Shown: piece after piece, positions 25,708 through 39,680 of the stretch | How positions within the stretch are numbered: position 1 is the stretch's first letter | Layout: each line of letters opens with the position of its first letter | DNA from: Streptomyces sp. B93 | GTDB taxonomy: Bacteria; Actinomycetota; Actinomycetes; Streptomycetales; Streptomycetaceae | Assembly (NCBI RefSeq): GCF_018070565.1 | Contig: NZ_JAGPXL010000023.1 | Coordinates: 1 to 64,000, forward strand | Length of the DNA: 64,000 nucleotides | Direction: 5' to 3' | The notes under the pieces: generated by a model | The model's database searches: none | What the model was told of the DNA's origin: nothing | Seen by the model: only the letters and a program-made list of their open reading frames with translations | Position numbers and translations under genes: made by a program

Positions 25708-25752
25708 CTGCGCACTCGGCAGGATTCGAACCTGCAACCTTCTGATCCGTAG
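25708..25752. repeat. attL: 45-bp core with a duplicated tRNA-Arg 3' half
   Basis: Identical over 45 bp to 39351-39395. It starts at CTGCGCACTC and stops at CCGTAG, inside the anticodon loop of the tRNA. Here the tRNA sequence is only the 3' half and is not a gene. Confidence 0.95.
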
Positions 25753-26100
25753 GATCGGGCAGCATCTTACGGAGGGGCACCACCACGGCTTGGTTGGATC
25801 GCCGACGTTAGTAATCATCGGCTTCTGTGTGCCGTCGTTGCCGTCAGAGCTGCCGTCAACCGCGAACGATACACCGCCACCACGACGGGCTCTCAGCCCG
25901 CCCGCCTCAGCTCAGACAACATCGACCTAACGCGCTCCCCAACAGCAGCAGATAGCAACCCGAGGACGGGCCCGTGCAGACCTGAAACCCGACACTTGCG
26001 TCCTGTCTACCAAGTTGCAGCTATCCCAACGGGTCCGAGGCGGCTCGCTCCGGTCTCCACCCCGCCCCAGGTGCGTCGTGGCTGGCACGGTCGGTGATTG
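25753..26100. other. Gene-free left end of the element
   Basis: 348 bp between attL and the YaaC-like gene. It holds three copies of a TGCCGTC repeat (25830-25858) and otherwise no convincing frame, hairpin or promoter. Confidence 0.6.
25829..25860. promoter_or_regulatory. Candidate integrase arm-type sites, left
   Basis: TGCCGTC occurs at 25830, 25839 and 25851; the last two are the longer TGCCGTCA, 12 bp apart. The same TGCCGTCAA pair occurs at the other end of the element (39281 and 39294). Matching short repeats beside both att cores are expected for tyrosine-integrase arm sites. Confidence 0.5.
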
Positions 26101-27189
26101 TCAGGGATCTCTCCGGGAACTTACAGCTCTGATCGTGTGGTGCACCAACTCAGGACAGACATGCAATGCACAGTCAAGCGCGTGCTCAACGGAGGCGGCG
26201 TCCGGGCTCCTGTCGACGTCGATAAATTCTGTCCACTTGGCTGGCTTATACCGAGCAAGCATAGAAAGCGAAAAGAGCAACGCCCACCAGGCAATGAGCG
26301 GATGTATAGGCTTATCGCTACCATCCAAGGCAGGAAAAACATATCGCCTCTCATCGCCAGCATAAGGGGTCGTGAGAGATTGCGACCACTCCTGAACATT
26401 TTCAGGTGGACTCTTCAAGACCCAGACTCGAGATATTCGAGCACACTCTCCCTCCGAGAAGCTTTGAGTCACTTTCCGCAGCTGATTTCCCGCCTCTTGC
26501 GCTCCCGTCAAAGTAGGATAGTGGGAGATAAATTCACAGACCTTCCGCTCTTCGTCATCTCGCAGGAAGCGCTTAGATACGCCATCGAGCCACCCGTAGA
26601 TTCTGAATTCTCCATCGCTAATTCTCTCACCCGGCCCTTGCAGCGAAAATCCAAGGAAGGGATGAAGCGGCTGATTGGAGGACTCTAGAGGGAAGGGCCT
26701 CAACTCGGGGATGGTACACCAAATCTTGCCCAGCGGAACTCCTTGACCCAGCGTACTTGACGAGAGAAGTGACGCTAGGCCGATAAAGCTTCCACCCCCT
26801 TTCGTGTCATGAAGACCGAGGTTCGCCAACCGTCGATACCGCCCATCAACATCCGCTGTAATCCCATGCTTGGCGAGATCCCACTCCTTCTCTCCCGCTT
26901 TCACCGAAGCAGCCGCTATTGCTCGACCCGCCTGACTTATGCCGTAGAACAAGAGCAGGGGGCGTGAGGCATAACCCGCATTCGCAGCCGAAGTGAAGAG
27001 CTGCTCAGACTGCTCCAACGCTGCACTGAAGACTTCTCGTCGCGCCCCACTACTGGCTGCACCTGGGGCGCGATGGCGCATCGCCCTGATGCTTCGCCAA
27101 ACCATGTTTGCACCAGGAGCACTCAGGTCCGCCAAGGTGCCACCAAGCCGATGCCCCCCGGGGCCCAAAGGAGAAGGTAGGTTAACCAT
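26101..27189 (-). CDS. YaaC-like family protein (element cargo)
   Basis: A 362-aa protein with segments that I recognise as YaaC-like: ASRPLLLFYGISQAGRAIAA (about residues 73-92) and HPLIAWWALLFSLSMLARYK near the C-terminus. YaaC proteins have no assigned reaction. No signal peptide or membrane helix is convincing. The gene is much less GC-rich than the neighbouring chromosome and uses many A/T-ending codons, a sign of recent transfer. It stands alone, at the edge of the element, a position often used by accessory genes such as phage-defence functions; this role is only a guess. ATG 27189 opens MVNLPSPLGPGGHRLGG. Confidence 0.65.
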   Translation of the reverse strand: MVNLPSPLGPGGHRLGGTLADLSAPGANMVWRSIRAMRHRAPGAASSGARREVFSAALEQSEQLFTSAANAGYASRPLLLFYGISQAGRAIAAASVKAGEKEWDLAKHGITADVDGRYRRLANLGLHDTKGGGSFIGLASLLSSSTLGQGVPLGKIWCTIPELRPFPLESSNQPLHPFLGFSLQGPGERISDGEFRIYGWLDGVSKRFLRDDEERKVCEFISHYPTLTGAQEAGNQLRKVTQSFSEGECARISRVWVLKSPPENVQEWSQSLTTPYAGDERRYVFPALDGSDKPIHPLIAWWALLFSLSMLARYKPAKWTEFIDVDRSPDAASVEHALDCALHVCPELVHHTIRAVSSRRDP

Positions 27190-27638
27190 GGCGTGATTCT
27201 CTCAGTACCTGAAGTCGAGGTGCATGCTCTTTCTCGCGAACGCTCTGCGCACCGCCAACAGGCTGTTAATCGGCGAGTGATAGGTCCTGGGCGAGGACGT
27301 GTGAGCCACGCGTGATACACCATCAGCGTTCGGATCGTGGAGGCCGTCGCATGGGAGCCGACCATCCTCGTCCTAGTGGTTCACCTCAGCGCCGGAAGTT
27401 CCCCATCCGGGAGCGTGCACCAGCCCGAGCAGCCCGAGGTGAAGACGCAACCGGGGAACGGCCAGTGATGTCCAGTTGCGGAACATGACCGCTCTTACTG
27501 CCCCTGACTGTTGGTCGCTCCAGCTAAGGCAGGGGCACACCACGGACATCTCGTCAAGGTGACGTGAAAAGAGTCAAACGGCAACCCCTGTCCAGATCAG
27601 TCTGAGATCCTGGAGACTGAGCGAGAGGGGCCGCAGGT
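27190..27638. other. Intergenic region between YaaC-like and Nudix genes
   Basis: 449 bp with intermediate GC content. Short open frames here (for example 27123-27365 on the minus strand) have no family likeness and no ribosome-binding site. It must contain the promoters of two divergent genes, but I cannot pick clear boxes. Confidence 0.5.
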
Positions 27639-28172
27639 ATGGAGTGGAAGACCCACGGTGAGCGACAGATCTACACCAACAGGTGGGTGAACCTGTGTCT
27701 GGTCGACGTCCAGCAGCCTGACGGGCGCAGGTGGGAGTACCACGTCGTTCGCCTCCGGCACCTGGCCGTGGCCGCCGTGGTCAATGACCGCCAAGAGGTG
27801 CTGATGATGTGGCGGCACCGCTTCATCACGGACTCGTGGGCCTGGGAGCTGCCCATGGGCCTGGTGGAGGAGGGCGAGACTCCGGAGGAGGCAGCGGCCC
27901 GCGAAGTTCTGGAGGAGACCGGCTGGCGTCCGGGCCCCGTCAAGCCCTTGATCTACGCCGAGCCCGCCAACGGCATCACGGACTCACAGCACCACGTCTT
28001 CCGTGTGGACGGCGCGACCTACGCGGGACCGCCCACCGAGAAGAACGAGTCCGACCGCATCGAGTGGGTGCCCCTCTCGGAGGTGCGGGGAATGATCGAC
28101 CGCCGCGAGATCGTGAGCAGCGGATCACTCGTCGGTCTCCTGTACCTGCTCATGGATGAAGCGATCCGCTGA
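27639..28172 (+). CDS. Nudix hydrolase (candidate Pif-type immunity factor)
   Basis: A 177-aa protein with a complete Nudix box at about residues 75-97 (GLVEEGETPEEAAAREVLEE then TGW), with all G, E, REx2EE positions kept, in the ADP-ribose pyrophosphatase-like subgroup (substrate-binding region EYHVVRLRHLAVAAVV, AGPPTEKNESDRIEWVPL). Its place inside an AICE recalls pSAM2, where the Nudix protein Pif blocks redundant transfer between carriers. That role is inferred from position and fold only. Its last 23 bases overlap the convergent HTH-TPR gene. Confidence 0.85.
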   Translation: MEWKTHGERQIYTNRWVNLCLVDVQQPDGRRWEYHVVRLRHLAVAAVVNDRQEVLMMWRHRFITDSWAWELPMGLVEEGETPEEAAAREVLEETGWRPGPVKPLIYAEPANGITDSQHHVFRVDGATYAGPPTEKNESDRIEWVPLSEVRGMIDRREIVSSGSLVGLLYLLMDEAIR

Positions 28173-29490
28173 CCGGTGGCATGAGTTCCCGTAGCCTCGC
28201 CTCGAAGGCCAGGGCCACGGGCTCCTGCCTGTACGGCGCCAACTGGTCGTAGAACTCTCGGAGGTGGCCGGACACGCGCTCGGAAGCCACCGCGGACGCG
28301 GGCTCAAGGGCCTGCGTGGCTGTGTGGCACGCCTGGTCCAGCTTGCCCTGATCGAGCTGCGTACGAGCAAGCCAGAACGTGTGAAAGGCCCGGCCGCGCT
28401 GGTTGGTCGGGGCCTCCCGTCGTAAGGCATCCGCGATCAAGGGCTCGGCTGTCGCCGCCTCACCCAGTCGGCCGTGGGCAATACCGGTGTCCACTATCAG
28501 CTTCGGCTCATCGAAGTAGGTCACCCATGAGGGGTCCGGGTCGCTCGCCTGGATCTGCTCAAACTGGCGGTGCGCTTCCCCGATCGCCCTCGTGGTGGCG
28601 TCCCGGTTGCCGAGTGTGGCGTGAGCAAAGGCTTCCCGCATGGAAAGCATGGAAAGAACGCGCGGGGTGCTGCCGGGAGCGGATCGGGCTTGATCCTGGG
28701 CAGCGCTGACGAGCGCAAGAGAGTCCACGGGCTTGTCCTGGTACGTCGCCTGCAAGCTCATGCAGGCCAGGACGTTGGCCATGAACTGCCGATCGTCGAT
28801 TTCCTTGGCCAGTTGCAGGGCTTCGGTGAAGTACGCGCGGGCCTGGTGGTACTGGCGGGCGTCGAAGTAGGTCCAGCCGGTGAGGCGCGCCAACTCAGCC
28901 GCGATGCCGTACAGCCCGTTCTGGATGGACGGCGGTCGGCCTTCCTTCAGTAGTCCTACCACGTAGCGGAGCTGCCCCACGATGGCCGGTCTCAGGGCCT
29001 CGCCGCCGTGCTGGTCGTCCCGCCGCCAGTAGTCCTCAATGGACGACCGAAAGGCTTCCAGCGTGGCTCCGTTGAGGCTGGTCCGAGTGGCCAACGCAAG
29101 GATGCTGTCCACGTCTGGCCCGGGCAGGGATGCAGGCTCATGCCTCTCCGGCTCCCGCTCTGGCGGCATCTCACGATCGGTGACGGCGAGCGCCTGCGGC
29201 GTCTCCCAAGGTCGTCGGGCAAGCCCGAGCATGTGTCCTGGGATGCGCAAGCCGTCCGCGATGCGCTCGATGACGTCCATGTGCAGCAACTGACGCCTGC
29301 CAGCAATTACCTCGCCGACCCGGCTGGGCGTCAGTTCGCATCTCCTGGCGATCATCGACGGGTAGATACCCGCCCTTGTCTTCACCAGCCGGAAGACCCT
29401 GGCGAAGTCCCGCATCCGGCACGCGTTGATCATCTCGGGATCGGTCAGCAGCCTGGCAGGAAGCTCCTGCGGCCGGTCGGCGTCGGGCAT
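28150..29490 (-). CDS. HTH (XRE-type) regulator with TPR domain and a TTA codon
   Basis: A 446-aa protein: an N-terminal HTH (about 27-80, FRLVKTRAGIYPSMIARRCE, LTPSRVGEVIAGRRQLLHMD), a linker with Glu/Pro, and a long helical TPR-like region (about 130-440, LARLTGWTYFDARQYHQARAY, FTEALQLAKEIDDRQFMANV). This build is common in Streptomyces peptide-sensing or plasmid regulators. The Leu of ADALRREAP is encoded by TTA (forward 28423-28425), the codon read by the bldA tRNA, so expression may depend on development. ATG 29490 is preceded by GGGAGC. A perfect 17-bp palindrome lies in the divergent interval upstream. Confidence 0.85.
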   Translation of the reverse strand: MPDADRPQELPARLLTDPEMINACRMRDFARVFRLVKTRAGIYPSMIARRCELTPSRVGEVIAGRRQLLHMDVIERIADGLRIPGHMLGLARRPWETPQALAVTDREMPPEREPERHEPASLPGPDVDSILALATRTSLNGATLEAFRSSIEDYWRRDDQHGGEALRPAIVGQLRYVVGLLKEGRPPSIQNGLYGIAAELARLTGWTYFDARQYHQARAYFTEALQLAKEIDDRQFMANVLACMSLQATYQDKPVDSLALVSAAQDQARSAPGSTPRVLSMLSMREAFAHATLGNRDATTRAIGEAHRQFEQIQASDPDPSWVTYFDEPKLIVDTGIAHGRLGEAATAEPLIADALRREAPTNQRGRAFHTFWLARTQLDQGKLDQACHTATQALEPASAVASERVSGHLREFYDQLAPYRQEPVALAFEARLRELMPPVSGSLHP

Positions 29491-29551
29491 TGGGCAAGCT
29501 CCCAGACTGCGAGGGCTACGCAACGTCGCGAAATCTCTACTTGCGGCGATG

Positions 29552-29568
29552 TTACCCAAGTTGGGTAA
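29552..29568. promoter_or_regulatory. Perfect 17-bp operator palindrome between divergent genes
   Basis: TTACCCAAgTTGGGTAA lies between the HTH-TPR gene (start 29490) and the small protein (start 29617). A half-site, TTACCCAA, recurs at 32398-32405 inside a hairpin. The adjacent HTH protein is the obvious candidate ligand. Confidence 0.65.
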
Positions 29569-29616
29569 TCAGCCTGACCTTTCCTCAGCGGTGTACCGAT
29601 CGCGATGCTCCTGTGC

Positions 29617-29847
29617 ATGGCGAGCAACCAGCAGACCAGACCAGGCATCGGTGAACTGGCGAAGGACATCGCCAGCGGACGCGTCGGCGTCGTCATGGGT
29701 GAGACCGGTGGCCGCGTGCAGATAAGGCCGGTCGGCGGCGGTGTCGAATGGGATGCCATGCCGGACAACGTGGTGGCGCCGGGCGCGCGGGAGGAACTGA
29801 GCGCGCGTGTGGCCATTGCGAACGGCAACAGTCGGTCCAGGCTGTGA
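29617..29847 (+). CDS. Small conserved protein of regulator-linked type
   Basis: A 76-aa protein: ASNQQTRPGIGELAKDIASG then RVGVVMGETGGRVQIRPVGG and GVEWDA. I recall similar small proteins with the RVGxVMGxxGGRVxLRPxGGGxEW pattern next to HTH regulators in Streptomyces; the fold may be a small SH3-like barrel. Function unknown. ATG 29617 is chosen over ATG 29605. It is the first gene right of the palindrome and overlaps the next small frame in TGATG. Confidence 0.65.
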   Translation: MASNQQTRPGIGELAKDIASGRVGVVMGETGGRVQIRPVGGGVEWDAMPDNVVAPGAREELSARVAIANGNSRSRL

Positions 29848-29945
29848 TGCGCGCCATCGGCCGGTATGCGGGAGTCCTCTTCATCGTCCTGCTCAGCGGG
29901 TCCTGCGGCCTGGTGATCGGGATGGCTCTCAGCATCCGCCCGTAG
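29847..29945 (+). CDS. 32-aa membrane peptide
   Basis: MRAIGRYAGVLFIVLLSGSC then a second hydrophobic stretch to SIRP. It is almost wholly one membrane helix with a basic start. Its ATG overlaps the preceding stop (TGATG), which supports coupled translation, and a terminator follows 4 bases after its stop. Below the usual length limits; no family known. Confidence 0.45.
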   Translation: MRAIGRYAGVLFIVLLSGSCGLVIGMALSIRP

Positions 29946-29948
29946 ACC

Positions 29949-30003
29949 GGCCAACCCCGAACGGGTACCAGTTCCCGGCTCCCGCCCCCGTCCGGGGTTG
30001 GCC
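29949..30003 (+). terminator. Terminator after the small-protein pair
   Basis: GGCCAACCCCG (29949-29959) and its exact complement at 29993-30003 form an 11-bp stem around a long loop, ending the 29617-29945 transcript. Confidence 0.6.
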
Positions 30004-30097
30004 ATCCAATCCCACGTCGCAGACCGTCCGTAGGTCACGGCTTCGCGATCGATGTGGACGGTAAGTGCCACACACCACCAACCCAAGGAGAAGGCGC

Positions 30098-30541
30098 ATG
30101 ACGGCAACGGCGAACGATCAGAAGACCGGCCGCTCGGTGGCTGGTGAGGAACTCTTCCAGAGCCTCGCCCACTTCGTGGTCATCCACAACGGGCAGTCGC
30201 CCGAGCGTGCCGAGCAGATCGCGGACCAGGCGGTCGCCTTCGTAGTCACGGCGGCGACCGCCACGGTTCCCATGGTCCCGTCGGACGACGTGGACCTGGG
30301 TCTGCACGCCCTCATCCTGCACACGAAGGAGTACGCCGCGCTGTGCGAGCAGTACGCGGGCCGCTTCCTGCACCACAACCCGATGCCGGGTGGGGAGAGC
30401 CGCGACCCGGAAAAGGTCGCCGCCTCGGCGCGTGCCATCAAGGCCGCCGGATTCGTCGTCTTCGACGACCTCTGGACCATGGACGGCGAGAACCTCGGCC
30501 AGTGCGACTCGGACTGTGGGCGACCGTACGGTCAGGCGTAG
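30098..30541 (+). CDS. GRDP-like protein with Cys-containing C-terminus
   Basis: A 147-aa protein. Residues about 20-60 are helical (LFQSLAHFVVIHNGQSPERA); residues about 65-95 read LGLHALILHTKEYAALCEQY then AGRFLHHNP, which resembles the core of glycine-rich-domain (GRDP-like) proteins, where a 'WHxxILxTxxYxxFC...FxHHxP' pattern is usual. It ends in GQCDSDCGRPYGQA with two Cys spaced by three residues. AAGGAGAAG precedes ATG 30098. The kinase-like gene follows after 71 bases. The GRDP likeness is from memory of the pattern and should be treated as tentative. Confidence 0.55.
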   Translation: MTATANDQKTGRSVAGEELFQSLAHFVVIHNGQSPERAEQIADQAVAFVVTAATATVPMVPSDDVDLGLHALILHTKEYAALCEQYAGRFLHHNPMPGGESRDPEKVAASARAIKAAGFVVFDDLWTMDGENLGQCDSDCGRPYGQA

Positions 30542-30561
30542 CACACGACCAACAGCGACGT

Positions 30562-30587
30562 GGCCGACACCCTTCTCGTGGTCGGCC
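30562..30587 (+). other. Hairpin between GRDP-like and kinase-like genes
   Basis: GGCCGAC (30562-30568) and GTCGGCC (30581-30587) form a 7-bp stem directly before the ribosome-binding site of the kinase-like gene. It could be a weak terminator or a processing site that sets the ratio of the two products. Confidence 0.4.
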
Positions 30588-30612
30588 GCGTTCGCCGGGA
30601 AGGAGAAGCGAC

Positions 30613-31449
30613 GTGTCCGGCTCAACCACCGAGCTGCCGATCGTGGTGCTCAACGCTCTCATGCCCACGAGTCAGCGTCTGGTGATCAACCGTCGGGGTT
30701 CCTCGGTCTGGGACGTGGAGGGCGAGCGCGGCCGGTATGCGGTGAAGCTCGGTTATCCCATCGAGGCGACGCCCGAATGGCCTGCCCAGCCCTGGACGGC
30801 ACTCGCACCCGCACGCGAAGGTGCCGTCCTGAACCGCCTCGGCTTCGAGGAAATCGGGTACGGCGAGTGGGAACACGGAACCTGGAACTTCCAGCCGTGG
30901 CGCGAAGGGCCGGACCTGTACAGCTTGTGGGAGCCCTGCCGACGGGCAGAACCGCCCTTCGAGCCGCACGCCAGCGTGGCCTTGGGATGCGTCGAAGCGC
31001 TGACCGAACTCCACGCCAAGGGCTGGGCTCACGGTGACGTACAACCCGCTCACTTCATCATCGCGCCGGAACGGACACACCTCATCGATCTCGCTCTAGC
31101 TCATGGCGGACGTGTGCCCGAGAGGTACGACTTCCCCTTCCGCGGCTGCCTCGTCCACTACGAGGCGCCGGAGATCTCGCGCAGTGTGCTCGCGACAGGC
31201 CAGGCCGAGCCCACGCAGGAGGCAGACGTCTACGCGCTCGGCGCATCCCTGCTCATCTCTGCCACGGGCTGGCGGGCCGTCGAGTACCCCGATGACGCTC
31301 CGCGTCCTGTCCAGCGAGAGGCCGTGGCGAACGGCAAACGGCGACCTGTGAAAGCTCCCGGTGAGCTGGGTGAGCTGATCGAGGCCATGCTCAGCTACGC
31401 CCCAGAGGACCGGCCAACCATCTACGAGGTGGGGAAAGCCCTGAGCTGA
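30613..31449 (+). CDS. Degenerate protein-kinase-like protein
   Basis: A 278-aa protein with a kinase fold: ATP-site Lys in RYAVK (Lys45), catalytic loop HGDVQPAHF (about 140-148), metal-loop DLA in place of DFG (about Asp159), YEAPE (about 182-186), EADVYALGASL (about 197-207) and DRPTIYEV near the end. The HRDxKxxN signature is changed: Arg to Gly, Lys to Gln and Asn to His, but the catalytic Asp is kept. It may transfer phosphate to a small molecule or peptide, or be a pseudokinase. No membrane helix or sensor domain is attached, unlike housekeeping Pkn proteins. GTG 30613 has AAGGAGA upstream. It pairs with the GRDP-like gene. Confidence 0.75.
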   Translation: MSGSTTELPIVVLNALMPTSQRLVINRRGSSVWDVEGERGRYAVKLGYPIEATPEWPAQPWTALAPAREGAVLNRLGFEEIGYGEWEHGTWNFQPWREGPDLYSLWEPCRRAEPPFEPHASVALGCVEALTELHAKGWAHGDVQPAHFIIAPERTHLIDLALAHGGRVPERYDFPFRGCLVHYEAPEISRSVLATGQAEPTQEADVYALGASLLISATGWRAVEYPDDAPRPVQREAVANGKRRPVKAPGELGELIEAMLSYAPEDRPTIYEVGKALS

Positions 31450-31466
31450 CCCCCAACAACCCAAAG

Positions 31467-31511
31467 ACCGGACCACCCCTCAGCCTGGACAGCGATTCGG
31501 GGTGGTCCGGT
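31467..31511. terminator. Terminator after the kinase-like gene
   Basis: CCGGACCACCCC (31468-31479) and its exact complement (31499-31510), with one more A-T pair, form a 13-bp stem around a 19-base loop, 18 bases after the stop codon. Confidence 0.8.
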
Positions 31512-32116
31512 TCTGGAATCCCTGGTCAGGACCCCGGTGCCGATGGTACCGGGGTGATCGGCGTGCTCTGACTCGGGTACGGCCGCAACCCCTCATGCCC
31601 ATTGCCGAGTTGGAAGGGACGGCCGTTGCGGATCAACCAACGTTGGAGTGACCTGCGCCACCGAAAGTCAGCCACAGCGGCGGGACCGCCGAACGAGCAC
31701 CCGTCACGTGTGCCTCCAGCAACCCCGTACCGGCCTCAGCCACGCCTCCTGGGTGTTGCCGACGTGGCTGGGCAACTGGGCTGCCCCTACGGCTCTGCGT
31801 GCCATGCGGCTTTGAAAGACGGGCGGTTGGGTGGCGGGTCCTCGCCTGGTGGGTGTCGGCTTGGTCCTGGTGGTCGGGGTGGTCGAGCTGCTTCCTGGTC
31901 TGGCTGTCCGCCTTGATCAAGTAAAGAAACTCTGAACAGCTCCGGTGCGCTGGGCCCGTGGCCGGTCGCGCGGCCATGCGCTGGCCCTGTCCTCACGACC
32001 GCTCGCGGACTCTCCAGCCGCTTTAAGCCCGCTAGATCCGTGTTCATGCCCATTGGTTCAGGCGAGCGTCGAACTTTATCCACAGGCAGGGGATTGCAGG
32101 ATGCCGTTTGCGTGGT

Positions 32117-32192
32117 TGGTCGGGGCTCACCAGTCCACCTCGTGACCGTTTCGTGACCTTGGTCGGCCGCTGATGGTCGGGGTCATGGTCGG
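32117..32192 (+). repeat. TGGTCGG iteron-like cluster
   Basis: TGGTCGG occurs at 32117, 32160, 32174 and 32186, all in the same direction; a further copy is at 31871. Spacing is irregular (43, 14 and 12 bases). Confidence 0.45.
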
Positions 32193-32604
32193 TGGTGAGT
32201 GCTGAGCTGATTCCGTCGGCGGCCGTCACACCGACTGACTTTCCGGCACCCGGAGCGGCTGAACGGCATACGGGATTCTCACCCGATGGAGAAGTGGCGT
32301 GGGTCACAGAAATGAGGGTCGCACCGACCCGGAGTTCCGCACCCCTATAGGCACTCCCCGATGGAGTGAGCGGCGGAACATAGCACGGAAGTGCCGGTTA
32401 CCCAAACCGGCGATTCCCCGGACTATTGATGGTCCCGGGCGACGACTGGAAGGAAGGCGACGTGAGCGCTACGAGGCGAGATCCCGCTCTGCGGGAGGGC
32501 GGAGATTTCACACCTGCCGCATTGCCCGCCTGGCGGGACCCCGCCCTGCGCACGCCTGGCGTGTCCGCTCGGGCCGGTAGATGTAGCTGCACCATACGGA
32601 TTGC

Positions 32605-32675
32605 GGCTTGCCAGATGGCACGGGCAAGCCCTGCTCCAGGGCGGGGCAGCCGCCGGGCAAGCCTTCGGGCAAGCC
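32605..32675. repeat. CGGGCAAGCC direct repeats, candidate transfer locus
   Basis: CGGGCAAGCC is found at 32621-32630, 32654-32663 and 32666-32675, with an inverted GGCTTGCC at 32605-32612. TraB proteins of Streptomyces plasmids recognise short repeated octamers in clt; this is the only such cluster near traB. Confidence 0.5.
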
Positions 32676-32730
32676 CTCGGCTGTTGGGTGGAGGCAACAC
32701 GAACAACGGCACGACCGCGAACGGGTGGAC

Positions 32731-32868
32731 ATGAACGAGCACGAGACAGCACGTATAGCGGCTCGACTCAAGGAGGTGGAGGAGAAGCTGGCTCAACTAG
32801 AGGGTCTGGTGCGTCGGGCCATCGAGAAGAATGCCATTACTTCTTCGGCGACTGCTTCGCCTCCATGA
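32731..32868 (+). CDS. 45-aa coiled-coil protein
   Basis: MNEHETARIAARLKEVEEKL then AQLEGLVRRAIEKN, a clear amphipathic heptad pattern, and a Ser/Thr tail. No family is known and the ribosome-binding site is weak. Its last 32 bases overlap the convergent GntR gene. Codon use and the neat coiled coil favour a real gene, but only moderately. Confidence 0.4.
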   Translation: MNEHETARIAARLKEVEEKLAQLEGLVRRAIEKNAITSSATASPP

Positions 32869-33253
32869 CACCGCCCAGCTGCTGGAAGACCTGCAACAGG
32901 CTGTCCAGCCTGGCGTTTATGGCATCCAGCCGCTCGCTGAGTTCAATGTATTCCGGCGTGGGCATTCGCCCACCGCTTGCCGCCTCGGGAGCGCCGCCCT
33001 TCGGGGCGGACTCTGCGGGCAGAGGGTCGGCGACGAAGTTTCCCCGACCCGGCATGGAGTAAATCAGCCCCTCGTCACGCAGCACGCGCAGCGCGGAACG
33101 TGCGGTCATGTTCGCGATCTCGTAAGTCGCTTCCAGGTCACGGGACGAGGGGACCCGCTCACCTGGCTTGAGGCGCCCGGAGCGAATCTGCCGCCGTAGC
33201 TCCTCGGCGACCAGGCGGTACGGCGGAGTGTCGGAATCCTTGGGCAGCTTCAT
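32837..33253 (-). CDS. GntR-family repressor, KorSA-like
   Basis: A 138-aa protein: N-terminal winged helix (about 8-75, YRLVAEELRRQIRSGRLKPG, ERVPSSRDLEATYEIANMTA, RSALRVLRDEGLIYSMPGRG) and a short C-terminal coiled coil (about 100-130, YIELSERLDAINARLDSLLQ) instead of a ligand-binding domain. This build equals KorSA of pSAM2, which silences transfer and replication genes. It diverges from the tra operon. An imperfect palindrome at 33262-33284 just upstream is a likely autoregulatory site. Confidence 0.85.
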   Translation of the reverse strand: MKLPKDSDTPPYRLVAEELRRQIRSGRLKPGERVPSSRDLEATYEIANMTARSALRVLRDEGLIYSMPGRGNFVADPLPAESAPKGGAPEAASGGRMPTPEYIELSERLDAINARLDSLLQVFQQLGGVMEAKQSPKK

Positions 33254-33261
33254 AGACCGAG

Positions 33262-33284
33262 GGTAGCGGGCCTAGCCCGTCTAC
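33262..33284. promoter_or_regulatory. Candidate KorSA-like operator
   Basis: GGTAGCGGGC (33262-33271) and GCCCGTCTACC (33274-33284) are inverted arms around CTA with a one-base bulge, 9 bases upstream of the GntR start. Confidence 0.5.
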
Positions 33285-33346
33285 CGCAGTAGGACCCTGA
33301 TGCACCTGGATCTTTCCCATGCGCCACTCCCGCTCTGAGTGCGATG

Positions 33347-33364
33347 AGCGCTAAGCGCTTGACG
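33347..33364 (+). promoter_or_regulatory. Palindrome and -35-like box before the tra operon
   Basis: AGCGCTaAGCGCT (33347-33359) is a perfect palindrome that runs into TTGACG (33359-33364). A good -10 box is not seen at normal spacing. It is a possible repressor-controlled promoter of the tra operon. Confidence 0.35.
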
Positions 33365-33440
33365 CACCTATCGGGGGTAGTGCACATTGGATCTCGCTTC
33401 GCCGCCTCGGCGGAGCACCTAACGAAAGGACGTAATACCC

Positions 33441-33800
33441 ATGGCCCGTATCCGTGTTGGCCTGCTCCCCACCGCGTCGTTCATGGTCGGCACCATGCCG
33501 GTGCCGAAGTACGCGGACGCCGAGAAGACCCAGTTCGCCGTGGACCGGGAGACCGGCGCGAAGCTGATGACGATCACCCTCTTCTTCATGGAGGAGGACC
33601 GAGCCGAAGCGCTGAAGATCACCGTTCCGGAGACCGGTCTCCCCAACGGCCTCAAGCCGGGTCTGCCGGTGATGCCGGTGGAGCTGTTCGCCACCCCGTG
33701 GGCGCGGATCTTCAACGGCCAGCTCTCGGACGGGATCGCCTACCGCGCCGACCGCCTTGACCTGGTCGGCGGCTCCGCCCCGGCCGCTGAAGCCGCGTGA
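33441..33800 (+). CDS. AICE-conserved protein at the head of the tra operon
   Basis: A 119-aa soluble protein (MARIRVGLLPTASFMVGTMP, TITLFFMEEDRAEALKITVP, DGIAYRADRLDLVGG). I recall similar proteins just upstream of traB in many Streptomyces integrative elements, with no function assigned. Beta-rich; possibly an OB-like fold. AACGAAAGGACG precedes the ATG. Its stop overlaps the next gene's GTG in GTGA. Confidence 0.75.
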   Translation: MARIRVGLLPTASFMVGTMPVPKYADAEKTQFAVDRETGAKLMTITLFFMEEDRAEALKITVPETGLPNGLKPGLPVMPVELFATPWARIFNGQLSDGIAYRADRLDLVGGSAPAAEAA

Positions 33801-34003
33801 GCGGCACCGCCTTCCGGTTCGGCGCTGAGCGCAGTTACCCGCTGGCTCACGCCGGACCGGACCCCCGGTTCAGCGAATCCCTCGTCAACTCGGTGGCGGC
33901 CGTGCTCGTCGGCTACGGCTACCCCCGCTTCGCCGCCCTGGAGGACTGGGCGGCCCTCGAAACGGCCCTCGCGGCCTTCCTCTACACCCCCAAGGAGCAG
34001 TAG
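33797..34003 (+). CDS. Small AICE-conserved protein
   Basis: A 68-aa protein (GTAFRFGAERSYPLAHAGPD, LVNSVAAVLVGYGYPRFAAL, EDWAALETALAAFLY). It is helical and soluble, coupled to the gene before (GTGA overlap) and ends directly before the traB ATG. Function unknown, but the tight coupling suggests a role in transfer. Confidence 0.7.
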   Translation: MSGTAFRFGAERSYPLAHAGPDPRFSESLVNSVAAVLVGYGYPRFAALEDWAALETALAAFLYTPKEQ

Positions 34004-35413
34004 ATGTCCGTGCAGGAGGTGTTCAGCCTCGCCCCGTTCGTCGCGCTGATCGGCCTCGCCGTGTTCGTCGTGTGGGGCGTGGTGTGGGCGGTCCGCTATC
34101 TGCTGGCCGACTCCATGATGCGGGCCAGCATCCGGCAGGCCGTACGAGTGCGCCGCACCTGGAAGCGGTTCGCCGCAATGGCGGGCCTGTCCGTGACGGA
34201 CAAGACGCCGACCGCCATGGCGTCGCTGTCGAACGCGGATGGCAAGCCGCCCAAGCCCCGGCTCCTGACGCCGACTCTGAAGGTGACGCCGGACCCGTTC
34301 GGCGTGATGGTGCAAGCCAACTGCCTGCCGAAGGTGGGCCTGGAGGAGTTCCAGAAGGCCGCGCCCTATATCGCGGACGCCTGGCGGTGCACGCGGGTGT
34401 CCGTCGCCCAGAACAAGCCCGGTCAGGTCCTCATCCGTGGCGTGCGTGTCGACCCGCTCATCACCAAGACCGAGCACACCCCTTCCGGCAAGGTCCCGGA
34501 GAAGCTGTCGGTGTGGAACCTGGGGGTGGACGAGTACGCCCAGGCAGTGAGTGTCGACCTGGCGGAGGTGCCCGGCGTAACCGTGGCGGGCCTTCCCGGC
34601 TTCGGGAAAACCTCGCTGATCAACCGGTTCATCTGCGACACCGCGCCCTCTCCAGCCGTGCAGTTCGCGGTGGCGGACGGCAAGGTGATGGCCGCCCATG
34701 AAGGCGACTACGCCGACCTGATGGGACGTCTGTTCGCCTTCGCTGGAAGCGACCTGGAGGAAGCGAACGCTCTGTTCTGGAAGCTGGTCAGGCTGCGGCG
34801 CGCCCGGTCCACCGCGATCAAGACCGTCCTTCGTCGCAAGGACATGTGGCACGGCGGGCCGTCCGTCGACTGGCCCTGGGCCGTGCTGATCATCGATGAG
34901 GCGCACACCTACTTCCGCGACCACAAGGGCTCTGACAAGGAGACCAAGCGGCTCGCCGCGCTGGCAGCGCAGAACGCCCGCTTGGTGGAGGAGTTGGTGA
35001 AGATGGGCCGGAGCGTCGGCATCCTGGTCATCCTCGCTACGCAGAAGAGCACAGGTGACGCCATCCCCACGTTCATCCGCGACGTGTGCCCGGTCGGCCT
35101 GTCCTTCGCGCAGAAGACCGCCGATGCGGCCGTGGCCGCCCTGGGCGAAGACATCCGGGACTGGCCCGATGCAAGCCCCACCGTGTTGCAGGAACCGGCG
35201 TACGTCGGCGTCGCGGTCATGAAAAGCAGTGGGCAGAAAGGTTTCACCCGCCTGCGTACCCCGTACGTCAGCGAGGACGACTCCGCAGACATCGCCGCAC
35301 GTACCGCCTACCTCACCGCCGATCCGGCCGACCTGCTTGCCGCTCAGCTCCCCGGCATCGACCTCACGAAAACGGGCTCGGACGGCGACTCCATCCCGCC
35401 GCTGGCGGCCTGA
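34004..35413 (+). CDS. FtsK/SpoIIIE-like DNA translocase TraB
   Basis: A 469-aa protein: N-terminal membrane segment (about 8-33, LAPFVALIGLAVFVVWGVVW), then an ATPase with Walker A GLPGFGKTS (about 193-201) and Walker B AVLIIDEAH (about 291-299). Such proteins pump double-stranded plasmid DNA between hyphae and are the only essential transfer protein of pSAM2-type elements. It starts one base after the preceding stop. The C-terminal DNA-recognition helix expected in TraB proteins is not obvious to me. Confidence 0.92.
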   Translation: MSVQEVFSLAPFVALIGLAVFVVWGVVWAVRYLLADSMMRASIRQAVRVRRTWKRFAAMAGLSVTDKTPTAMASLSNADGKPPKPRLLTPTLKVTPDPFGVMVQANCLPKVGLEEFQKAAPYIADAWRCTRVSVAQNKPGQVLIRGVRVDPLITKTEHTPSGKVPEKLSVWNLGVDEYAQAVSVDLAEVPGVTVAGLPGFGKTSLINRFICDTAPSPAVQFAVADGKVMAAHEGDYADLMGRLFAFAGSDLEEANALFWKLVRLRRARSTAIKTVLRRKDMWHGGPSVDWPWAVLIIDEAHTYFRDHKGSDKETKRLAALAAQNARLVEELVKMGRSVGILVILATQKSTGDAIPTFIRDVCPVGLSFAQKTADAAVAALGEDIRDWPDASPTVLQEPAYVGVAVMKSSGQKGFTRLRTPYVSEDDSADIAARTAYLTADPADLLAAQLPGIDLTKTGSDGDSIPPLAA

Positions 35414-35454
35414 CCCCGTCCGGCTCGCCGTTCACGAAAGGAGGTGAACTCCCC

Positions 35455-36171
35455 ATGTCCGAGGACCGGATCACCCAACGCACCGTGACCGTCGTCATGG
35501 GCATCATCGCCCTCCTGGCGTTCGTCTTCTCCTTCGGCAACGTCTGGGCTCTGGCCCTGCGCCTCGGCGTTCCTTCCCCCATCGCACCCCTGATCGCCCC
35601 CATGGTCGACCTGTCCGTGGTCGGGCTCCTGGTGGCCTTGCGCTACCTCTCCCTGCGCGGCGTCCCGCCCGAGCAGATGAAAGCGGCCACGCGACTCATG
35701 CACGTCTCGGGGCTACTGACCCTCGCCCTCAACGTCGCCGAACCCATCGCCGCGGGGCACTACGGCCGCGCCGCTGTGGATGCCGTGGCTCCCCTGCTCC
35801 TCCTCGGGTGGGGAGCGGTCGGCCCTCAGCTCCTCCGCTCCTTCCACGCGGTCACCATCAGCGCCACCGTTCCGGCCACGGCTGCCGAGACGGAACCGCC
35901 CCAAGGGCCCAACCCCGCCTCCATTGAGACGGAACGCGCCTCGGTGCCTCCCCTTCTCGTCGCCCCGGAATCGGCCCCCGTCGCTTCGGTCGCTGCTCCT
36001 GCCCCTGCCCCTGCCCCTGCGGTCAAGGTGCCTGAGCCGCTGCTCACCGAAGCTCGCTCCATCGCCGCGTCGCATCATGCCGAGCACGGCGAGCCCATCA
36101 CAGCGGCTCAGCTCAAAAGGCGGCTCGGCATTGGCTTGCCCATGGCCACCGCCCTGCACGCCGCCCTGTAG
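35455..36171 (+). CDS. DUF2637 membrane protein, SpdB-like
   Basis: A 238-aa protein with four membrane helices in the first about 125 residues (VVMGIIALLAFVFSFGNVWA, APLIAPMVDLSVVGLLVALR, SGLLTLALNVAEPIAAG, APLLLLGWGAVGPQLL), a Pro/Ala-rich linker and a C-terminal HTH-like end (HGEPITAAQLKRRLGIGLPM). DUF2637 proteins are a standard part of Streptomyces plasmids and help spread within the mycelium. A textbook AAAGGAGGTGA ribosome-binding site precedes ATG 35455. Confidence 0.85.
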   Translation: MSEDRITQRTVTVVMGIIALLAFVFSFGNVWALALRLGVPSPIAPLIAPMVDLSVVGLLVALRYLSLRGVPPEQMKAATRLMHVSGLLTLALNVAEPIAAGHYGRAAVDAVAPLLLLGWGAVGPQLLRSFHAVTISATVPATAAETEPPQGPNPASIETERASVPPLLVAPESAPVASVAAPAPAPAPAVKVPEPLLTEARSIAASHHAEHGEPITAAQLKRRLGIGLPMATALHAAL

Positions 36172-36321
36172 CGCCGCTCCCTCCGCTGGCCTCCCCAGCA
36201 CCTCCCACCCCACGCCCACCCCTGGGCCCACCACGTCATGCCTGCGGGCAGCAGCCCGAGCGCACTGATCGCTGCTGCCCGCAGGCCCCACCCTCACGCC
36301 AGAAGGGAGACCCCGCCACCC

Positions 36322-37800
36322 ATGCGCCGCCCCCTCGACCTGCGCCACGTGATCAGCCCCAGCGTGCGGGACCTGATCGAACTGGCCAACACCCACGACT
36401 TCGACCGCGTCACCGAACAGGTCCGCAACCTGCGCGGCTGCACCCGCCCCGTCAACCTCCACGGCTGGACGGTCACCACCGACCCGGCCACCAAGGATGT
36501 GGTCCGCTCCTACCGCTCCGAAGACGAACCCTCCGGACGACTGCTGACCACCTGCGGGAACCGCCGCGCATCCCGCTGCCCCACCTGCTCACGGGTGTAC
36601 GCCGCCGACACCTACCACCTGATCAAGGCCGGACTGTCCGGTGGCAAGAACGTCGCCGAAACCGTCCGTGGCCACCCCCGCGCCTTCGTCACCCTCACCG
36701 CCCCCTCCTTCGGCCCCGTCCACCGCAACACCGACCGTGCGGGCAAGCCCTGCCGCTGCGGCATCCACCACCCCGACGACGACCCGGCGCTGAGCACCCC
36801 ACTGGACCCGGCCACCTACGACTACACCGGTGCGGTGCTCTGGAACGCCCACGCCGGACAGCTCTGGGCACGCTTCACCACCTACCTGCGCCGCGCCCTG
36901 GCCGAACACCTCGGCATAACCCAGAAGGCGCTGAACGCCGCCCTCCGCGTCTCCTTCGCCAAGGTCGCCGAGTACCAGAAGCGCGGTCTGGTCCACTTCC
37001 ACGCCGTGATCCGCTTCGACGGGCCCGACGGTCACACCACGCCGCCCCCGCCCTGGGCCACCTTCGATGCCCTGAGCGCCGCCGTGGGCCTGGCCGTCGA
37101 GCGTGCCCGGCTCATCGTCGCCTCCGACGCCATCGGCGAACGGGTCATCGCCTGGGGCGGCCGGTTCAAGGTCGACTCCATCACGGCCCTGGGCGACGGC
37201 GAACTCACGGACGCCAGGGTTGCCGAGTACACAGACGCCAAGGTCGCCGGATACGTCGCCAAGTACGCCACCAAGAACGCCGAAGGTGCGGGCACCGTAG
37301 ACCGCACGCTGATGTGCCATCCGTGCGCTGGACGCGGCTACGTACGCGGGCCCTCCCAACTCCCGAACCGCTGCGCCGACTGCCACGGCACCGGGCAGGC
37401 CGAACCCATCAAGTCCCTGCCCATCCACCAGCACGCACGGCAGATGATCCGTACCGCCTGGGCCCTCGGACACCTCCCCGAGTTCGCCCACCTCAAGCTC
37501 TGGAAGTGGGCCCACATGCTCGGCTTCCGCGGCCACTTCTCCAGCAAATCCCGCGCCTACTCCACCACCCTCGGCGCACTGCGCGACGTACGCCGCGCCT
37601 GGCGCCTCGCCCAAGCCGAAGCCGCTCGTGCCCGCGCTGGCCTGCCCGCCAGTGACGAGCACACCACCCTTGTCACCACCTCCTCGTGGACCTATCTCAG
37701 CAGCGGCTACCGCCCCGGCGAAGAACTCCTCGCCGCCCAGGTCCGCCACGACATCGCTCACACCCAACGCCTCAAGCAGGAAGGACTGGTGCCCGCATGA
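36322..37800 (+). CDS. Rolling-circle replication initiator, RepSA-like
   Basis: A 492-aa protein. HUH motif HFHAVI near residue 225 (RGLVHFHAVIRFDG) and a catalytic Tyr candidate in YVAKYATK near residue 310. Two zinc-like clusters are present: CGNRRASRCPTCSRVY (about 77-92) and CHPCAGRGYV with CADCHGTG (about 331-357). The size and order fit RepSA of pSAM2. ATG 36322 is used because the family similarity starts there and AGAAGGGAGA lies upstream, though 11 bases away. Its stop overlaps the xis ATG. Confidence 0.9.
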   Translation: MRRPLDLRHVISPSVRDLIELANTHDFDRVTEQVRNLRGCTRPVNLHGWTVTTDPATKDVVRSYRSEDEPSGRLLTTCGNRRASRCPTCSRVYAADTYHLIKAGLSGGKNVAETVRGHPRAFVTLTAPSFGPVHRNTDRAGKPCRCGIHHPDDDPALSTPLDPATYDYTGAVLWNAHAGQLWARFTTYLRRALAEHLGITQKALNAALRVSFAKVAEYQKRGLVHFHAVIRFDGPDGHTTPPPPWATFDALSAAVGLAVERARLIVASDAIGERVIAWGGRFKVDSITALGDGELTDARVAEYTDAKVAGYVAKYATKNAEGAGTVDRTLMCHPCAGRGYVRGPSQLPNRCADCHGTGQAEPIKSLPIHQHARQMIRTAWALGHLPEFAHLKLWKWAHMLGFRGHFSSKSRAYSTTLGALRDVRRAWRLAQAEAARARAGLPASDEHTTLVTTSSWTYLSSGYRPGEELLAAQVRHDIAHTQRLKQEGLVPA

Positions 37801-37979
37801 CGACGGCCGTACTCACCGTGGACCAGGTGGCGGAGCGTCTCGGCATCAGCCGATGGAAGGTCCACGACCTGATCCGCTCCCGCGAACTCACCTCCTTCAA
37901 GATCGGCCGCTGCCGCCGCATAAGCGAGACCGCCGTGCACGCCTACATATCGCTCCGCACCGAACAGGAAGCCGCCTGA
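37797..37979 (+). CDS. xis: Excisionase (MerR-like HTH)
   Basis: A 60-aa DNA-binding protein: LTVDQVAERLGISRWKVHDL, then a wing (RELTSFKIGRCRRISETAV). It directs Int towards excision. It overlaps rep by 4 bases (ATGA) and int by 1 base (TGATG), so rep, xis and int are expressed together. Confidence 0.9.
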   Translation: MTTAVLTVDQVAERLGISRWKVHDLIRSRELTSFKIGRCRRISETAVHAYISLRTEQEAA

Positions 37980-39262
37980 TGGCCAAGCCGAAGAAGAACG
38001 CCAATAACGAGGGCACCATCTACCAGCGGAAGGACGGCCGCTGGGAGGGCAGTGCCTACGTTCTGACGACGGACGGCACGTACAAGCGGCGCAGCGTCTA
38101 CGGCAAGACCTGGGACGAAGCACACGAGAAGCTGACCAAACTCAAGGCCGACTCCCTGAACGGTCTGCCGGTCGCCACCAACAAGATGACCATCTCCCAG
38201 TACCTGACGTACTGGCTCGCGAACGTCGCCAAGGGCAAGGTGCGCAGGACGACATACGTCAACTACGAATCCCTCGTCCGCAACTACATCACCCCCGAGT
38301 TCGGTAGGAAGAAACTGACCCGGCTCACCGCCCGCGACATCCGGGCCTTCCTGACCAAGACGGCGGCCACCTGCCAGTGCTGCGCCCAGGGCAAGGACAA
38401 AAAGCGGCCCGAGCACAAGCGGCGCTGCTGCGCCCTCGGCAAGTGCTGCAAGAAGCTCCCCTCTGACCGCACCGTCCGCTTCCTGCTGGTAATCCTGCGG
38501 GCCGCTCTCCAACACGCCGTACGTGAAGACGAGTTGCCCCGCAACGTGGCCCGGAACGTGGAGCTGAGCATGGGAACGAAGCGCGAGATCGAGCCGCTCA
38601 CGGCCAAGGAGGGGCGTCAGCTCCTAGCGGCGGCCCGTGACAACCGGCTGTGGGCCACGTACGAACTGGCGGTCCGCATCGGCCTGCGGCGCGGTGAGCT
38701 GCTGGGGCTGCGTTGGTCGGACGTGGATCTCCACGAAGGCGTCCTCACCGTCCGGCAGGCCCTACAGCGGGTCGGCGGCGAACTGCTGATCGTCGCGCCG
38801 AAGACTCAACGGTCGGCCCGTCGCGTGGCCCTGCCGCCCGAATGTGTGACCGCGCTCCGTGCTCAGCGCGCCCAGCAGACTGCCGACCGAAAGGCCGCTG
38901 GTGCCAACTGGAAGGGGACGGGCCAGGGCCTCGTCTTCACCACGAAGAACGGGACCCCCATCGAGCCGCGCAACCTGAACCGGTCCTTCGAGGCTCTGTG
39001 CGCTCGCGCCGGAGTCCGTAGGGTCCGCTTCCACGATCTGCGCCACACCTGCGCTTCCTTGCTGCACGAACAGGGCGCCGACGCTCGCATGATCATGGAA
39101 GTCCTGGGCCACAGCTCCATCCGCGTGACCATGGACATCTACACCTTCGTACGGCTCGACTCTCAGCGCTCGGCGTTCGATCGCGTCGGGGATGCCTTGA
39201 GGGATGACGGCAACGAAACGGACGATGACGACGGCGCGGCCGGTGTCCCCGTAGCCGTGTGA
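37979..39262 (+). CDS. int: Site-specific tyrosine recombinase (integrase)
   Basis: A 427-aa integrase: arm-binding N-terminus (about 10-60, GTIYQRKDGRWEGSAYVLTT), core-binding SAM-like domain (about 68-190), and catalytic domain with Arg in IGLRRGELLGLRWSDVD (about 237), HDLRH (about 351-355) and Tyr in VTMDIYTF (about 386). Residues about 128-158 contain an unusual insert with seven Cys (CQCC, CCALGKCC), possibly zinc-binding. It lies 88 bases from attR and carries out integration into tRNA-Arg(ACG). ATG 37979 overlaps the xis stop. Confidence 0.95.
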   Translation: MAKPKKNANNEGTIYQRKDGRWEGSAYVLTTDGTYKRRSVYGKTWDEAHEKLTKLKADSLNGLPVATNKMTISQYLTYWLANVAKGKVRRTTYVNYESLVRNYITPEFGRKKLTRLTARDIRAFLTKTAATCQCCAQGKDKKRPEHKRRCCALGKCCKKLPSDRTVRFLLVILRAALQHAVREDELPRNVARNVELSMGTKREIEPLTAKEGRQLLAAARDNRLWATYELAVRIGLRRGELLGLRWSDVDLHEGVLTVRQALQRVGGELLIVAPKTQRSARRVALPPECVTALRAQRAQQTADRKAAGANWKGTGQGLVFTTKNGTPIEPRNLNRSFEALCARAGVRRVRFHDLRHTCASLLHEQGADARMIMEVLGHSSIRVTMDIYTFVRLDSQRSAFDRVGDALRDDGNETDDDDGAAGVPVAV

Positions 39263-39279
39263 TCGCCTCCTGAAGGCGG

Positions 39280-39302
39280 TTGCCGTCAAACACTGCCGTC
39301 AA
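39280..39302. promoter_or_regulatory. Candidate integrase arm-type sites, right
   Basis: TTGCCGTCAA (39280-39289) and CTGCCGTCAA (39293-39302) lie between int and attR and match the pair at the left end of the element. Confidence 0.5.
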
Positions 39303-39309
39303 GGCAAAA

Positions 39310-39347
39310 GCCAGAGGCCCTGTGGATCACTCCATAGGGCCTCTGGC
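39310..39347. terminator. Element-supplied terminator for int and tRNA-Arg
   Basis: A long hairpin whose outer 12 pairs (GCCAGAGGCCCT with its complement) are perfect, continued by an inner stem. It lies between int and the 3' end of the leftward tRNA gene and can end both transcripts, replacing the original terminator now at 25673-25704. Confidence 0.8.
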
Positions 39348-39350
39348 CTG

Positions 39351-39395
39351 CTGCGCACTCGGCAGGATTCGAACCTGCAACCTTCTGATCCGTAG
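39351..39395. repeat. attR: 45-bp core inside the intact tRNA-Arg gene
   Basis: Identical to 25708-25752. It runs from 3 bases beyond the tRNA 3' end to the anticodon loop, so integration rebuilds a complete tRNA. Confidence 0.95.
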
Positions 39396-39426: not shown

Positions 39427-39564
39427 TTGTCTTCTGTTTTCCTGTCTCCGCTCCCGGCCCTTTCGGCCCGCTCGCGGCGACAGGAAGAACATTACATGAC
39501 TGCCGCCGTCATGTGAAATCCGTTTGCGCTACCCCTTGTGACCTGCGAAAACGCCTCTTCGGGG

Positions 39565-39680
39565 CGTGCGGGCCGGGGGAACGCCGAAGCCCCGGCCGTG
39601 CGGGCCGGGGGAACGCCGAAGCCCCGGCCGTGCGGGCCGGGGGAACGCCGAAGCCCCGGCCGTGCGGGCCGGGGCTTCGG
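39565..39680. repeat. Three perfect 32-bp tandem repeats between two tRNA genes
   Basis: A 32-bp unit starting CGTGCGGGCC is repeated exactly at 39565, 39597 and 39629, followed by 14 bases of a fourth copy that then completes a terminator stem. Each unit contains GGCCGGGG and CCCCGGCC and can form its own hairpin. No unique spacers are present, so it is not a CRISPR array. Confidence 0.9.
39648..39680 (-). terminator. Terminator of tRNA-Ser(GCT)
   Basis: CCGAAGCCCCGGCC (39648-39661) and its exact complement (39667-39680) form a 14-bp stem with a 5-base loop, 9 bases beyond the tRNA. It overlaps the end of the 32-bp tandem repeats. Confidence 0.8.

Follow-up and report, generated by a model that had tools for sequence, protein, structure and literature searches.

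The window (the whole stretch of 64,000 nt analysed, positions 1 to 64,000 of contig NZ_JAGPXL010000023.1 of Streptomyces sp. B93) contains a 13.7-kb AICE integrated in tRNA-Arg(acg), with the right copy of its 45-bp repeat located within the tRNA gene. The att repeats and the genes for integrase, Rep and Tra, together with those for SpdB and an excisionase, bear out the earlier note, which had assigned the region to an AICE. The element and its main features are as follows.

25708–39395, no strand: AICE hosting the P147–KIN pair, with identical 45-bp direct repeats at its ends
25708–25752, no strand: left att repeat of the AICE (45-bp identical direct repeat)
27639–28172, + strand: NUDIX hydrolase gene, located 5' of the operon, where it and the HTH regulator gene are exchanged as a pair
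28150–29490, - strand: NsdA-family HTH-TPR regulator gene, divergent from the operon (NF053720, E 5.6e-106)
29605–29847, + strand: S80, the opening gene of the operon, encoding a small conserved protein; present in most P147–KIN loci
29847–29945, + strand: S36, 32 aa with a single hydrophobic segment, its start overlapping the S80 stop codon
29949–30003, + strand: long GC-rich hairpin in the gap between S36 and P147 (dG -36.5, z -4.7)
30098–30541, + strand: P147, 147 aa, GRDP-like scaffold protein with a C-terminal tail (ORF, homologues and fold model)
30613–31449, + strand: KIN, 278 aa, stand-alone atypical protein kinase (Pkinase match and kinase fold)
31466–31513, + strand: hairpin 3' of KIN with a 14-pair main stem (dG -34.7, z -2.4)
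34004–35413, AICE right half: Tra
35455–36171, AICE right half: SpdB-like
36322–37800, AICE right half: Rep
37797–37979, AICE right half: excisionase
37979–39262, AICE right half: integrase
39351–39395, no strand: right att repeat of the AICE, the 3' part of tRNA-Arg(acg)

The right half of the AICE also contains a GntR gene, and the left half carries a YaaC-like gene, the NUDIX gene, the divergent NsdA-family HTH-TPR regulator and the operon S80-S36-P147-KIN. The YaaC-like protein (26101–27189, - strand) matches PF14175 (3.9e-37) and has no PADLOC match. A 32-bp GC-rich repeat is present in tandem copies at 39562–39674, in the interval between tRNA-Arg and tRNA-Ser. S36 is kept in most close homologous loci (neighbour cluster of 65). 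Both ORFs of the pair are real and lie where they had been placed. P147 starts at the ATG at 30098; an in-frame GTG is present at 30065, yet the homologue alignments begin at 30098. KIN starts with a GTG at 30613. The sequence motifs claimed for the two proteins (ILHTKEYAALC...FLHHNP and the QCDSDCG tail in P147, HGDVQPAHF and DLA in KIN) are all present.

The pair had been described as lying between two terminators and behind an HTH-TPR regulator. The two sites form strong hairpins (29949–30003 and 31466–31513), and no T-rich terminators were found there; the regulator is indeed nearby, but its gene is divergent, and S80 and S36 lie between it and P147. The structure of the hairpin at 29949–30003 is preserved across 77 distinct homologous versions of differing sequence (mean -36.9 kcal/mol), and many loci have a second, less regular inverted repeat 5' of the ribosome-binding site of P147. 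The HTH/NUDIX pair upstream of S80-S36-P147-KIN is of the window's version in 44 of 80 loci and is replaced by a different HTH/NUDIX pair in 24. Furthermore, the same operon occurs in 5- to 10-kb elements that lack Rep and Tra and are bounded by tRNA-Arg repeats (L009, L026, L032, L053, L063 and L040). The two alternative HTH–NUDIX pairs and the elements without Rep and Tra show that the operon outlasts the transfer genes. Because regulator and NUDIX gene are swapped, a dedicated pairing with the NsdA regulator as a necessary partner was rejected. By eye, two of the small att-bounded elements contain genes resembling those for an OLD/AAA ATPase (L032) and a restriction endonuclease (L063).

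Two regions of P147 can be distinguished.

30125–30478, + strand: folded helical GRDP-like domain, residues 10–127 (AlphaFold2 pLDDT mostly >90)
30503–30529, + strand: tail core CDSDCGRPY, residues 136–144 (low model confidence, probably disordered)

In the AlphaFold2 model, which was built from 50 sequences, residues 10–126 are helical and confidently predicted, and the C-terminal tail has low confidence. The core of the domain (residues 61–95) has the pattern PSxxVDxxxHxxILHTxxYxxxCxxxxGxxxHHxP, and V65, D66, H70, C83, H93, P95 and W126 are invariant or near-invariant. The proposal that P147 is GRDP-like holds as a distant relationship and not as a direct PF07173 match. P147 and six divergent members of its family are below the PF07173 cut-off, nor is there any PF07173 match in the host's own genome, and P147 and its divergent relatives have no match in Pfam, NCBIfam, PHROGs or PADLOC. 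However, comparison of the P147 family alignment (A2) with a set of bacterial GRDP-like proteins (A4), which includes one protein above the PF07173 cut-off (L139), gave an hhalign probability of 99.5 and an E-value of 3.7e-23 over 107 columns. In Foldseek searches, the P147 model matched a glycine-rich domain-containing protein-like protein of Harvfovirus (prob 1.00, TM 0.56/0.60, E 1.7e-3) and proteins of Gaeavirus and Terrestrivirus (prob 1.00 each); among solved structures, no relative of P147 was found by sequence or, with Foldseek, by fold. The match to A4 and the viral fold matches thus identify P147 as a distant GRDP-like protein. A GRDP-like protein of another actinobacterium (L325, 1189–1989) ends with a Gly/Cys-rich repeat tail.

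The second gene of the pair encodes a protein with the following motifs.

31030–31053, + strand: KIN catalytic loop HGDVQPAH, residues 140–147, near-invariant in homologues
31087–31095, + strand: DLA replacing DFG, residues 159–161 (IDLAL invariant in alignment A3)

KIN belongs to the kinase superfamily, with a Pkinase score of 32.1 bits (cut-off, 31.7) and a bilobal fold; its model is of moderate confidence (pLDDT 74) and matches many kinases with a Foldseek probability of 1.00. The full canonical catalytic set is not present. In KIN and its close homologues, the catalytic-loop Lys is changed to Gln144 and the metal-binding Asn to His147, and both changes are fixed; in remoter relatives the loop reads HADVQPTN, which retains the Asn, or H(A/G)DLQPSH. 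The description of KIN as 'degenerate' is borne out only in part: the 21 rows of alignment A3 show no variation at Lys45, Glu69, Asp142 or Asp159, the motifs are near-invariant over about 90 homologues, and APE and DxYxLG are retained. For these reasons, 'atypical' fits KIN better than 'dead', although the Gln and His substitutions leave room for KIN being a binder and not a catalyst. The best NCBIfam match of KIN is to region 293–452 of LanL (E 2.9e-15; 55.7 bits against a cut-off of 650); as the score is far below the cut-off and the other domains are absent, the possibility that KIN is a lanthipeptide synthetase was rejected.

The altered catalytic loop bears on one alternative, in which KIN, as a pseudokinase or a slow kinase, binds the P147 tail as a docking motif, the complex then acting on the neighbouring NsdA-type regulator or on host development. 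Such a signalling role would agree with the fixed N-to-H and K-to-Q changes and with the NsdA-family or XRE regulators that flank most members of the family, and NUDIX and NsdA-like genes have been reported in AICEs (PMC3218068). We nevertheless consider it unlikely, since the exchange of regulators over the same operon (44 versus 24 loci) argues against a dedicated contact and other partners of P147-type proteins belong to intact enzyme families.

The gene content of the element raises a second alternative. The NUDIX protein Pif of pSAM2 is a conjugal immunity factor (PMC3218068), and the pair is likewise cargo of mobile elements; P147–KIN may be linked to element immunity. The more specific explanation, that the pair, perhaps with the NUDIX gene, forms an anti-phage or element-immunity module blocking phages or incoming related elements, is in our judgement very improbable. 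The kinase region of KIN weakly resembles mad6 (1e-9) and PD-T4-6 (4e-7) in PADLOC, and a methyltransferase found beside relatives of P147 resembles mad2 (1.8e-16), but such scores are typical of kinase or methyltransferase domains in general. The matches of KIN are partial and confined to the kinase domain, and there is no PADLOC model for P147.

The pairing of the two genes had been expected to recur in other genomes, and it does. In 80 loci of other Streptomyces with P147 relatives at 72–90% identity, KIN is located downstream on the same strand in each, which is more than chance, and a P147 with a DxDxGRxY tail is followed by KIN in all 84 readable loci. A further P147 with this tail, in L088, is an orphan next to a transposase, and a full pair is present elsewhere in that genome. 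Viewed from the other gene, P147 lies within 1.5 kb of KIN in 22 of 29 KIN loci from other genomes. The seven loci without P147 include two at contig edges (L293 and L306), two in which P147 has been deleted except for its tail (L291/L344 and L298/L346), two where a short ORF directly 5' of KIN has GDSDDGR(D/P)Y at its end (L315/L347 and L319/L349), and one with neither P147 nor a tail ORF (L318/L348). The tail-only ORFs of L347 and L349 could be deletion remnants comparable to those of L344 and L346.

Kinases sharing 35–40% identity with KIN adjoin a divergent GRDP-like protein with a conserved tail of the EWDCGP type, in the operon XRE/DUF5753 - DUF6879 - GRDP-like - DUF6875 - kinase - GNAT (L333, L335–L338, L340 and L341), indicating that the association of GRDP-like proteins with kinases is old. 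Heme-dependent tryptophan hydroxylases are among the DUF6875 proteins (PMC13307353), and for this reason the operon looks like a small biosynthetic one; that the DUF6875 enzyme acts on the Trp of the EWDCGP tail is only a suggestion.

Selective constraint varies along P147. Over 66 KIN-class P147 genes, pN/pS was 0.06 for residues 135–144 (QCDSDCGRPY), 0.20 for residues 13–99, 0.40 for the linker (residues 128–134) and 0.36 for the last three residues. Residues 135–144 are thus the most constrained part of P147 despite being predicted as disordered. A constraint three times that of the fold in an unstructured region is best read as marking a putative recognition or modification site. In three long versions of P147 (L222/L312, L316 and L148), the tail motif is present twice. 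Natural homologues with DADCGRPY reveal that Ser138 is dispensable, whereas Asp137, Asp139, Gly141, Arg142 and Tyr144 persist, and Ser138 was therefore rejected as an obligatory phosphosite.

The tail motif itself had been noticed before; the correspondence between tails and partners and the wider family had been missed. Relatives of P147 were found in 128 of 198 good Streptomyces genomes (65%), in 58 IMG/VR loci, in a few plasmids and, next to the integrase gene, in temperate phages of Streptomyces. In the phages Kromp and TinaBelcher (L140 and L141), genes of the P147 family are partnered by S45 and a methyltransferase and lie close to the integrase gene, a position consistent with lysogenic cargo. 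Across 223 relatives, for which genes in other loci were taken from a simple codon-usage caller and classes from BLAST clustering, the type of tail predicts the downstream gene. The next same-strand gene was KIN in 86 loci, S45 in 37, C142 in 26, a methyltransferase in 20, S83 in 13 and an APH-like gene in 9. The small proteins S45, S83 and C142, three of the six classes, are not recognisable enzymes. A CNxPxCC tail was accompanied by C142 in 26 of 27 loci and a CxxCHxxC tail by a methyltransferase or APH-like phosphotransferase in 23 of 23. The xAAxCxH tail was found with S45 or S83 in 46 of 62 loci, the rest having unclassified neighbours and none having KIN, methyltransferase or APH enzymes. 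Because CxxCHxxC occurs with both the methyltransferase and APH, a strict rule of one tail to one partner was relaxed, and a heme-c reading of the CxxCH tails was set aside as not general, the motif being missing from the other tail classes. In a tree built from the domain alone, with the tail removed, the six partner states need 8 changes; partner labels thus largely follow the P147 lineage, and few independent switches back the tail–partner link.

The two-gene layout, with one scaffold and unrelated partner families, also invites comparison with addiction modules of the toxin–antitoxin kind, in which the GRDP-like domain would be harmful and the partner would neutralise it, enzymatic partners doing so by modifying it chemically. 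The location on AICEs and temperate phages, the retention of P147–KIN where a small att-bounded element has neither Rep nor Tra, and the loci that kept KIN after deletion of P147 (L344 and L346), which would fit an antitoxin remnant, can all be accommodated. An intact P147 without KIN exists (L088), however, some relatives have no recognised partner, and no known toxin fold is present in P147, so that we regard this explanation as decidedly unlikely.

The explanation that we prefer, and to which we give about an even chance, is that P147 and KIN form a matched, RiPP-like scaffold-and-modifier pair; among the three roles that the earlier note had considered, a peptide-modifying pair is the best. 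The helical GRDP-like domain of P147 would hold out the flexible C-terminal peptide QCDSDCGRPY, and KIN would recognise this peptide and most likely phosphorylate it. The tail peptide cognate to KIN would be NLGQCDSDCGRPYGQA. Tyr144 is the best candidate for the modified residue, given that several homologues have Ala at the position of Ser138. The pair would be one variant within a large family of Streptomyces and its phages, where the same scaffold bears other tails and has a methyltransferase, an APH-like phosphotransferase or a small protein as its partner. Modified P147 may be regulatory or may provide another benefit that keeps the element in the host. No protease or exporter was seen by inspection of the genes of the six small att-bounded elements, which makes a released peptide product unlikely.

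A broader proposal is put forward tentatively, as conceivable and somewhat less than probable. P147-like proteins may constitute a new class of modified proteins that AICEs and temperate phages have carried into most Streptomyces. The folded GRDP-like domain would act as both leader and scaffold, and the short peptide at its C-terminus would in each case be modified inside the cell by a dedicated enzyme, the enzymes being interchangeable (a kinase, a methyltransferase or APH, and DUF6875 plus GNAT in an older branch). In the open-access literature, we found no description of P147–KIN and nothing on Streptomyces GRDP proteins or on DUF6415/DUF6879 function, and the results suggest that matched tail-and-modifier pairs are an undescribed family. 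Two 'hypothetical' cargo genes thereby become an entry point to a family present in about two-thirds of Streptomyces genomes and give a first handle on a possible role of bacterial GRDP-like domains, as scaffolds for a recognised or modified tail, with an exact 10-residue target and a candidate residue named. If the tail is indeed modified, a class with a folded scaffold would be added to RiPP-like systems.

With regard to known systems, the host element resembles AICEs such as pSAM2 in its genes for replication, transfer and integration, its att site in a tRNA gene and its NUDIX and NsdA-like genes (PMC3218068), but no description of a P147–KIN cargo was found for these. P147 shares with GRDP-like domain proteins (PF07173, DUF1399) a helical domain with VDxxWHxxILxTxxYxxxCxxxxGxxxHHxP, and differs from them in scoring below the model and in ending with a peptide that is linked to a partner gene; the plant-type glycine-rich region is absent. 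The kinase domains of class III/IV lanthipeptide synthetases (LanKC and LanL) are the nearest NCBIfam counterpart of KIN, which consists of the kinase region only, without lyase and cyclase domains. RiPP precursors keep their leader and vary core and tailoring enzymes. In contrast to RiPP precursor/tailoring-enzyme pairs, in P147 a large folded domain takes the place of the short leader, the tail is conserved within each class, no protease or exporter was seen in the six elements inspected, and several partners are not enzymes. Nevertheless, the layout of P147 appears to fit the RiPP architecture of a precursor with a co-encoded enzyme, since both combine a conserved scaffold or leader with a variable short C-terminal peptide, the neighbouring modifying enzyme varies by subfamily, and the core motif is occasionally duplicated.
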